From the NCBI RefSeq assembly GCF_019800885.1, contig NZ_JAHVKE010000001.1, positions 248,001 through 312,000 of the forward strand: a DNA stretch of 64,000 nucleotides, given 5' to 3'. Source of the DNA: Maritalea mobilis (GTDB lineage Bacteria; Pseudomonadota; Alphaproteobacteria; Rhodobacterales; Rhodobacteraceae). The translations under genes and the position numbers were made by a program. Under the pieces are notes generated by a model. That model saw only the letters and a list, made by a program, of their open reading frames with translations. It was not told the DNA's origin and ran no database searches. Below are positions 4,095 through 49,080 of this stretch, one piece after another; positions within the stretch are counted from its first letter, which is position 1, and each line of letters begins with the position of its first letter.

Positions 4095-4802
4095 TCAGGC
4101 GCCAGCGGCCATCTGGTTGTGCTTGCGCAGGACGAATTCCTTGGCCGTCTCCACCGCCACGGCGGCATCCCGGCAATAGGCGTCGGCCCCGATGGCGCGG
4201 CCGAATTCCTCGTTCAAAGGCGCGCCGCCCACCAGAACGATGTAATCGTCGCGGATGCCTTTCTCGGTCATCGTGTCGATCACGACCTTCATGTAGGGCA
4301 TCGTGGTGGTCAGCAGCGCCGACATGCCGAGGATATCCGGCCCCTCGGACTCCAGCGCTTCGAGATAGGCTTCGACCGGGTTGTTGATGCCAAGGTCGAC
4401 CACCTCGAAACCGGCGCCTTCCATCATCATCGACACGAGGTTCTTGCCAATGTCGTGGATGTCGCCCTTGACGGTGCCGATCACCATCTTGCCGATGCGC
4501 GGTGCGCCGGTTTCGGCCAGCAGCGGCTTGAGGATGGCCATGCCCCCTTTCATCGCGCCGGCCGCCATCAGCACCTCGGGCACAAAGAGAATCCCGTCGC
4601 GGAAATCGTTGCCGACGATGGTCATGCCGCCCACCAGGGCCTTGGTCAGGATGTCATACGGCTCCCATCCACGGTCGAGCAGGATGTGGACCGCTTCCTC
4701 GATCTCTTCCTTCAACCCGTCGTAGAGGTCGTCGAACATTTGCTGGACGAGTTCCTCGTCATCCAGTTCCGACAGGATGATGTCGTCCTCTTCTTCGGAC
4801 AT
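4095..4802 (-). CDS. Methyltransferase-associated corrinoid (B12-binding) protein
   Basis: A 235-aa cytoplasmic protein with the two-domain layout of MtbC/MtmC-type corrinoid proteins. A helical cap domain covers about residues 15-95 and a Rossmann B12-binding domain about 100-225. The cobalt ligand motif is plain: GDIHDIGKN with His116, then GxxVxDLG and a GGAPLNEEF segment near the C-terminus. Such proteins carry a methyl group on cobalt between two methyltransferases. With the homocysteine methyltransferase at 6769-7785 it could form part of a split methionine synthase, as described for some roseobacters; the methyl-folate subunit is not in this window. An AAGGAGA ribosome site fixes the ATG at 4802. 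A seven-base inverted repeat abuts that site upstream. Confidence 0.9.
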   Translation of the reverse strand: MSEEEDDIILSELDDEELVQQMFDDLYDGLKEEIEEAVHILLDRGWEPYDILTKALVGGMTIVGNDFRDGILFVPEVLMAAGAMKGGMAILKPLLAETGAPRIGKMVIGTVKGDIHDIGKNLVSMMMEGAGFEVVDLGINNPVEAYLEALESEGPDILGMSALLTTTMPYMKVVIDTMTEKGIRDDYIVLVGGAPLNEEFGRAIGADAYCRDAAVAVETAKEFVLRKHNQMAAGA

Positions 4803-4916: not shown

Positions 4917-4945
4917 TTGAGAATGTTCTCTTTATGTTCTAGTTT
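4917..4945 (+). promoter_or_regulatory. LexA (SOS) box inside the promoter of the radical SAM gene
   Basis: GTTC at 4925-4928 and GTTC at 4936-4939 are separated by exactly seven bases, the alphaproteobacterial LexA operator. The box lies within the 17-bp spacer of a candidate promoter TTGAGA (4917-4922) / TAGTTT (4940-4945). If this promoter is used, transcription would begin at or beside the ATG at 4952, giving a leaderless mRNA. Confidence 0.75.
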
Positions 4946-4951
4946 CGCGCC

Positions 4952-6037
4952 ATGGTGCATGACCCCGAGATGACAACGGCGCGTCGGCGCGGGCGGGCGG
5001 CCACGGCCAACCATGCCGGGCGGTTCGAACGCTTCGACCGCGTGGCCGAACCCGATGGATGGCATGGCGACGGGGAGGATGCGCCGCTTCTGCGGACCGA
5101 GGTTTCAGACGAGGTGCCGCGCAAGGTCATCACGCGCAACACCTCGCCCGACCTCAGTTTCGACCGGTCGATCAACCCTTATCGGGGGTGCGAGCATGGC
5201 TGCATCTACTGCTTTGCCCGGCCCAGCCATGCCTATCTGGGCCTGTCGCCCGGCCTCGATTTCGAAACCCGGCTGATCGCGCGCCCCGAGGCACCCCGGG
5301 TGCTGGAGCGGGAACTTCGTGCGCCAAGTTACATGCCCAAGGTCATCGCCATCGGCACCAATACCGATCCGTACCAGCCGATTGAACGCGAGCGGCGGAT
5401 CATGCGCGCGCTGCTGCAGGTGCTGTCCGATTATCGCCACCCGGTCGCCGTGGTGACCAAGGGGGCGCTGATCGAACGTGACGCGGACATTCTGGGCGAG
5501 ATGGGACAGGCCGGGTTGGCGCGCGTGGGGATCTCGATCACGACGCTGGACCCCGAGTTGTCGCGCCGGATGGAGCCGCGCGTGCCGTCGCCCGCGCGCC
5601 GCTTGCGCGCCATCGAAACGCTGGCACGGGCGGGATGCCCGGTGCGGGTCATGGCCTCTCCGCTCGTGCCGGGGCTGAGCGATCATGAGCTTGAAGCGAT
5701 CCTGAGCGCCGCGCGCGAGGCGGGCGCGGTGGCCGCCTCGACCATTCCCCTGCGCCTGCCGCGCGAGGTGGCGGGGCTTTGGGCCGATTGGCTGGCCGAA
5801 CATTACCCCGACAGGGCCGCGCGCGTCATGTCCAAGATCCGCGACATGCATGGCGGGCGCGACTATGATCCGGAATGGGGCAAGCGCTTGAAAGGGCAGG
5901 GGATCTGGGCGGAGTTGATCCAGCAGCGCTTTGCCCGGGCGACCCGAGCGCTGGGCCTCGATACCGAACAGCCGCGCCTGCGCTGCGACCTGTTTCATCA
6001 GCCGCCGCGACCGGGCGATCAACTGGACCTGCTGTGA
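4952..6037 (+). CDS. PA0069/SplB-like radical SAM protein
   Basis: A 361-aa protein with the radical SAM cluster motif CEHGCIYC (Cys80, Cys84, Cys87), preceded by the family hallmark SINPYRGC. It belongs to the PA0069 family, related to spore photoproduct lyase (SplB). The family's reaction is not established. A GTTC-N7-GTTC LexA box sits 12 bp before the ATG, so the gene should be DNA-damage inducible, which supports a repair role (inference). There is no ribosome site before 4952; either the message is leaderless or the start is the ATG at 4970. It is followed by three short palindromes (6048-6112). Confidence 0.85.
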   Translation: MVHDPEMTTARRRGRAATANHAGRFERFDRVAEPDGWHGDGEDAPLLRTEVSDEVPRKVITRNTSPDLSFDRSINPYRGCEHGCIYCFARPSHAYLGLSPGLDFETRLIARPEAPRVLERELRAPSYMPKVIAIGTNTDPYQPIERERRIMRALLQVLSDYRHPVAVVTKGALIERDADILGEMGQAGLARVGISITTLDPELSRRMEPRVPSPARRLRAIETLARAGCPVRVMASPLVPGLSDHELEAILSAAREAGAVAASTIPLRLPREVAGLWADWLAEHYPDRAARVMSKIRDMHGGRDYDPEWGKRLKGQGIWAELIQQRFARATRALGLDTEQPRLRCDLFHQPPRPGDQLDLL

Positions 6038-6047
6038 CGGGAGGGAC

Positions 6048-6112
6048 CGGAAATCTCGAGATTTCCGTTTCGGAAAACCCCGGTTTTCCGGACAGTTTTT
6101 CTTGAGAAAAAC
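6048..6112. repeat. Three adjacent short palindromes
   Basis: A perfect 20-bp palindrome at 6048-6067 (half CGGAAATCTC), a nine-base-stem palindrome with CC centre at 6071-6090 (arm CGGAAAACC), and an eight-base-stem palindrome at 6095-6112 (arm GTTTTTCT). They fill the gap after the radical SAM gene. The last could serve as a terminator, but T-tract position is not classical. Confidence 0.65.
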
Positions 6113-46131: not shown

Positions 46132-46146
46132 GTTCCCGCAATGTTC
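46132..46146 (+). promoter_or_regulatory. LexA (SOS) box upstream of uvrA
   Basis: GTTC (46132-46135), seven bases, GTTC (46143-46146): a perfect alphaproteobacterial LexA operator 69 bp before the uvrA ATG. A candidate promoter TTGGAG (46158-46163), 17 bp, TATTTA (46181-46186) lies just downstream. Confidence 0.85.

Positions 46147-46215: not shown

Positions 46216-49080
<2,865 letters not shown>

Follow-up and report, generated by a model that had tools for sequence, protein, structure and literature searches.

Within the window (the entire 64,000-nucleotide stretch of Maritalea mobilis DNA analysed here), a PA0069-family radical SAM gene encoding 361 amino acids, assigned by NF033668, PF04055 and alignments, occupies positions 4952–6037 of the plus strand. 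It is preceded on the same strand by a −35 element TTGAGA (4917–4922, five of six consensus bases), a predicted LexA operator GTTCTCTTTATGTTC of the form GTTC-N7-GTTC (4925–4939), and a −10 element TAGTTT (4940–4945) that abuts the 3′ end of the operator and would place the transcription start at about 4952. Direct reading puts GTTCTCTTTATGTTC inside the 17-bp spacer between the two hexamers (4923–4939), with 12 nt between the operator and the ATG at 4952 and 6 nt (4946–4951) between TAGTTT and the ATG; the original description of the box, the spacer and both hexamers, and of the 12 bp to the ATG, holds to the base. TAGTTT retains three of the six consensus bases and is missed by a simple consensus promoter scan, so that its acceptance as the −10 element relies on the conserved position in relatives and not on the consensus match. 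Later candidate starts in the same open reading frame are GTG at 4955 and ATG at 4970.

Downstream of the gene, a sequence scan revealed a likely intrinsic terminator on the plus strand (6069–6102), with a 10-bp stem at 6069–6092 and a T-rich tail, which suggests a one-gene transcript; the fold of region 6034–6110 is weakly better than that of shuffled sequences (z −1.45). The divergent neighbour (4095–4802, minus strand) encodes a B12-binding corrinoid protein resembling MtbC/MtgC, which does not reach the NCBIfam cut-off of any named corrinoid protein. The two genes share a 149-bp intergenic region, and hence the box might mainly serve the corrinoid-protein gene; this is highly improbable, as the box lies 122 bp from the start of that gene and keeps a constant 27 bp to the ATG of the radical SAM gene in different genera, and we know of no SOS link of corrinoid proteins.

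Conservation of the operator

The motif count by itself is weak evidence for the box at 4925–4939, being near chance. Four GTTC-N7-GTTC matches are found in the window against 1.83 expected, and the 3.7-Mb genome contains 94 exact matches compared with 81 of the reversed pattern, so most exact matches in the genome are due to chance. From these numbers alone, one could argue that the motif is so common that its copy at 4925 means nothing. We consider the probability of this explanation negligible, given the conservation of the box at the same gene in other genomes. In the pooled survey, the box was observed upstream of PA0069-family genes in 91 of 100 Rhodobacteraceae and at 75 of 81 other loci, nearly all of them alphaproteobacterial (this group includes odd labels, one “Marinimicrobia” and one “Mycobacterium,” probably misnamed or contaminated), that is, in 166 of 181 genomes, about 92%, these counts not being independent, since relatives share ancestry. 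Control patterns, namely, reversed, re-spaced, permuted, and complementary versions of GTTC-N7-GTTC, were found in 0–7 of the 100 Rhodobacteraceae and 0–2 of the 81 others. In the individual sets, the exact box was present in 65 of 71 upstream regions of the initial Rhodobacteraceae set, in 27 of the 30 genomes sampled from alphaproteobacterial families other than Rhodobacteraceae, and in 74 of 80 in the set of named genomes. The exact box is missing in approximately 9% of the Rhodobacteraceae homologues, several of which differ from it by one mismatch, and a same-genus relative has GTTCTTATTTCGTTC at the equivalent place. Such a survey had been named beforehand as a possible refutation of the original prediction; it instead refuted the chance explanation, with the box retained in most genomes and its distance to the gene fixed in Rhodobacteraceae.

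The matrix built from the PA0069 boxes of the relatives ranks the box at 4925–4939 first among the 94 exact genome matches, a ranking that favours the PA0069 gene because the matrix was made from orthologous sites. Further support comes from a change of the operator between bacterial classes. In beta- and gammaproteobacterial relatives of the gene, the exact CTGT-N8-ACAG motif, which is the LexA box of these groups, is present upstream in 13 out of 19 cases, and the alphaproteobacterial GTTC-N7-GTTC box in none of the 19. The operator sequence is thus exchanged in step with the known specificity of the regulator, which is hard to explain except by LexA. PA0069 itself, presumably a member of the Pseudomonas aeruginosa LexA regulon, and Rv2578c, presumably a member of the Mycobacterium tuberculosis one, are not counted as evidence here, and our literature search, partial in coverage, found no publications linking either of them with LexA.

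The same operator type is common to the PA0069 gene and lexA, recA, uvrA, uvrD, imuB, and mmcB in one genome. Two overlapping boxes (805446–805471) immediately precede lexA (805525, plus strand), one box (683922) lies upstream of recA (682861–683823, minus strand), and further boxes are found at uvrD, imuB (identified by its IMS domain), and mmcB (C2:795833). The predicted uvrA box, GTTCCCGCAATGTTC, is the second LexA box of the window (46132–46146, plus strand; genome position 294132) and lies 69 nt upstream of the uvrA ATG at 46216; the identity of UvrA follows from NF001503 (665 bits across the 486 amino acids read). It serves as an internal control, being the box of an established SOS gene that has a leader. 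Taken together, conservation in relatives, the class-specific exchange, and the boxes at lexA, recA, and uvrA bear out the description of GTTC-N7-GTTC as the alphaproteobacterial LexA operator type, and on sequence comparison the site at 4925–4939 is almost certainly a LexA operator.

That “splB” is under SOS control in Alpha- and Betaproteobacteria has been predicted before, R. sphaeroides and P. denitrificans belonging to the alphaproteobacterial set of that study (Sanchez-Alberola 2012; PMC3323433). In the accessible part of that publication, the LexA regulon likewise combines GTTC-N7-GTTC with an SplB-like radical SAM gene, Betaproteobacteria having another LexA motif, and we infer that its splB is the NF033668 gene. 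Thus, SOS control of an SplB-like gene is not new, and the SOS-controlled PA0069 gene represents an already known type of case, which is well supported. The same part of the text describes no promoter layout and treats the protein as an enzyme of photoreactivation; compared with it, our analysis adds the position of the site in the −35/−10 spacer, the putative leaderless message, the beta- and gammaproteobacterial CTGT-N8-ACAG motif, and the missing residues of spore photoproduct lyase (SPL).

Promoter geometry and the predicted leaderless start

Alignment of the Rhodobacteraceae upstream regions on the box places CTTG at −9 to −6, TA immediately after the box at +15/+16, and the ATG at +27. 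The distance from the box start to the ATG equals 27 bp in 58 of 90 Rhodobacteraceae and 26–28 bp in 73 of 90. At the −35 position, T, T, and G occur in 89, 69, and 71% of 66 Rhodobacteraceae, respectively, and this TTG is conserved 35 bases before the ATG in relatives. The dinucleotide TA is seen at −12/−11 from the ATG in 51 of 73 relatives, with a peak of TAnnnT at −12. The predicted Rhodobacteraceae layout is therefore a −35/−10 pair separated by 17 bp, with the operator filling the spacer, followed by six bases and the ATG.

Given the −10 element six bases before the ATG, the comparison of relatives backs the original prediction of a leaderless message. Shine–Dalgarno-like 4-mers are at chance level in relatives with short spacing (one of 73 vs. 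1.6 by shuffling) and frequent in those with long leaders (19 of 25 vs. 6.9 by shuffling). Moreover, in 45 of the 73 short-spaced relatives no other in-frame ATG, GTG, or TTG is found from the box to the conserved domain; as the −10 element of these 45 precedes the sole available start codon by six bases, transcription is expected to begin at that codon.

Outside the Rhodobacteraceae, the alphaproteobacterial distance from the box to the ATG is most often 39 or 40. Among 39 upstream regions with this spacing, TTG falls within the N7 of the box in 34, and TAnnnT is found 12 bases before the ATG in 21, no other offset exceeding five. It appears that, relative to the promoter, the operator has been shifted by approximately 12 bp, which is close to one turn of the helix, and that the leaderless start has stayed in place.

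An alternative is a real operator combined with a short leader on the message, where the −10 element would be TATGTT (4933–4938), located within the box, or transcription would come from an upstream promoter with LexA acting as a road-block. TATGTT matches four of the six consensus bases vs. three for TAGTTT, and a second TAnnnT peak, inside the box at −19 (21 of 73 relatives), could mean a very short leader. However, the second LexA half-site alone accounts for part of this peak, the conserved −35 element is separated by 17 bp from the −12 hexamer and by 10 bp from TATGTT, and in other alphaproteobacteria TAnnnT is still at −12 from the ATG with the operator 12 bp farther away. Hence we consider a short leader rather unlikely and, from the sequence comparison, a leaderless message for the PA0069 gene quite probable; that the gene is both LexA-repressed and leaderless seems very likely.

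Leaderlessness is not universal, since in some rhizobial relatives (loci L149, L153, L160, and similar) the PA0069 start is separated from the box by approximately 80 bp or more, and most relatives spaced this widely have a Shine–Dalgarno sequence. Both leadered and leaderless versions of the gene are thus predicted inside one class. Neither is the layout forced by LexA control in general, as uvrA and lexA of M. mobilis have leaders.

The same arrangement is seen at mmcB (MmcB-like, PF06319) of Rhodobacteraceae, which shares with the PA0069 gene the geometry of the −35 element, operator, and ATG. In the survey of 30 Rhodobacteraceae mmcB loci (L254–L283), the box is present in 24, in 21 of them at 26–27 bp, and none of the loci with the box has a Shine–Dalgarno sequence. 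The encoded DNA-repair protein is unrelated to the PA0069 family, and the base after the box is mostly A, unlike the T at the PA0069 gene. Outside this class, lexA of M. tuberculosis has been shown by experiment to be leaderless, with coinciding transcription and translation starts (PMC2897130); it differs from the PA0069 gene, for which leaderlessness is a prediction, in gene, phylum, and LexA motif. No published account of a leaderless LexA layout was found in the literature searched, whose coverage was partial, and the fixed promoter layout, which is the new part here, seems not to have been described before. Judging from this layout, certain SOS genes may be designed for leader-free translation.

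The radical SAM enzyme and its likely function

The assignment to the PA0069 family made in the original prediction holds over the full length of the protein (NF033668, 493.9 bits vs. the cut-off of 360, profile positions 1–348 of 348), PF04055 being the only Pfam match of the protein. The [4Fe-4S] motif is C80-x3-C84-x2-C87, with all three cysteines invariant in the alignment. For the AlphaFold2 model (mean pLDDT 79, pTM 0.80), the closest solved fold is SPL (PDB:4fhf, E 1.6e-9, TM 0.56–0.60); the six best structure matches are all SPL, and the next fold has E 1.6e-6. The family profile retrieved no SPL in a sequence search of the PDB; a profile alignment via a bridge set links the family to SPL (E 2.4e-7), and aligning the family consensus globally with Geobacillus SPL gives a score of 35 vs. 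−64 (sd 13) for shuffles.

Known SPL (SplB; PDB 4fhc series; PF20903) thus resembles the PA0069 protein in fold, in the CxxxCxxC motif, and in a common stretch “EP…RL.A…AG…AP,” and differs in that identity is approximately 12–14% and catalytic residues are lost. SPL acts through C141, Y99, and Y97 in Bacillus subtilis numbering (PMC5368176). The equivalent of Y97 (Y96 in Geobacillus, Gt) is the invariant Y86, whereas the second relay tyrosine, Y99 (Gt Y98), corresponds to F88 in 43 of 44 sequences. The position of the hydrogen donor C141 (Gt C140) is T136 or N137 (N137 by global alignment and T136 by eye, the hhalign register being gapped here), with Cys in none of the 27+44 aligned sequences. 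No conserved Cys was found outside the cluster in the family alignments, and the Pfam SPL family, PF20903, has no match in the M. mobilis genome.

Could the protein nevertheless be a true SPL acting on spore photoproduct in a non-spore-former? The fold, the radical SAM motif, and the retained tyrosine would agree with this, and earlier authors call such genes splB (PMC3323433, PMC3925955). As the hydrogen-donor cysteine is absent, however, the protein is not a canonical SPL, and we regard that identity as very unlikely. The original description of the protein as SplB-like therefore stands for the fold and not for the catalytic residues, and the structural model suggests that it is probably an SPL-fold radical SAM enzyme outside the SPL family proper. 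It offers a testable case of the SPL fold without the hydrogen donor of SPL.

A further alternative is an SOS-induced enzyme acting on RNA, protein, or a small molecule and not on DNA. NF033668 is a hypothetical equivalog with no assigned reaction, and radical SAM folds serve many substrates, as seen among the lower-ranked structure matches. On the other hand, the nearest fold, by orders of magnitude, is that of a DNA-repair lyase, and SOS regulons consist mostly of genes for DNA metabolism. The SOS networks of several phyla also retain such genes: for Gram-positives and Balneolaeota, the SOS core is described as including radical SAM proteins (PMC7739468), and COG1533 SplB is found in the SOS network of Bacteroidetes (PMC8565304). 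A non-DNA substrate has a small but appreciable chance, and given the model and the SOS control we consider it likely that the protein is a DNA-repair enzyme. Its repair role, also part of the original prediction, would follow from SOS control and the SPL-like fold, with chemistry differing from that of known SPL. The radical SAM family appears to be SOS-controlled in most alphaproteobacterial carriers and most sampled beta- and gammaproteobacterial relatives, and this suggests that DNA-damage repair includes a conserved step still to be explained.

From what was computed here, namely, operator conservation, its exchange between classes, the geometry, the missing Shine–Dalgarno sequence, and the fold, we infer LexA binding, induction, the 5′ end, and the repair activity, which may be combined as follows. 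In the undamaged cell, LexA would occupy the operator between the −35 and −10 elements and block RNA polymerase; upon damage, RecA filaments would stimulate LexA self-cleavage, switching the PA0069 gene on. Transcription would start at the A of the ATG, or one to two bases off, yielding a leaderless message translated without a Shine–Dalgarno site. The product, a radical SAM enzyme with an SPL-like fold, would most likely reverse or process a DNA lesion by chemistry other than the known SPL radical relay. We hold with good confidence the joint reading of a LexA-repressed promoter, a leaderless message, and an SPL-fold enzyme for a DNA lesion. A broader reading, whose chances we consider evenly balanced, is that Rhodobacteraceae possess a LexA-leaderless module at at least two damage genes (PA0069 and mmcB), that elsewhere the operator lies 12 bp upstream, on the −35 element, with the leaderless PA0069 start kept, and that the SPL-fold repair enzyme uses a hydrogen donor other than the SPL cysteine.

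Other boxes in the genome

Several other boxes were observed in the genome. The one at 1027241 overlaps the beginning of a photolyase-like coding sequence (the codons for NVLVWFKR), looks like a chance match in a coding region, and was rejected. A strong box GTTCTATTTTTGTTC (C3:79386–79400) lies 2 nt upstream of a 126-aa open reading frame (L006:1104–1484) that matches the error-prone polymerase DnaE2 over its last 90 residues only and may be a remnant of dnaE2, decayed or frame-shifted. The box GTTCTTAAAAAGTTC (L002:1496–1510; C1:334895) is located 29 nt past the recG stop codon. Finally, the high-scoring box GTTCCCTAAATGTTC (L007:1522–1536; C3:107821) lies 79 nt upstream of an aldo-keto reductase gene, which is not a usual SOS member.
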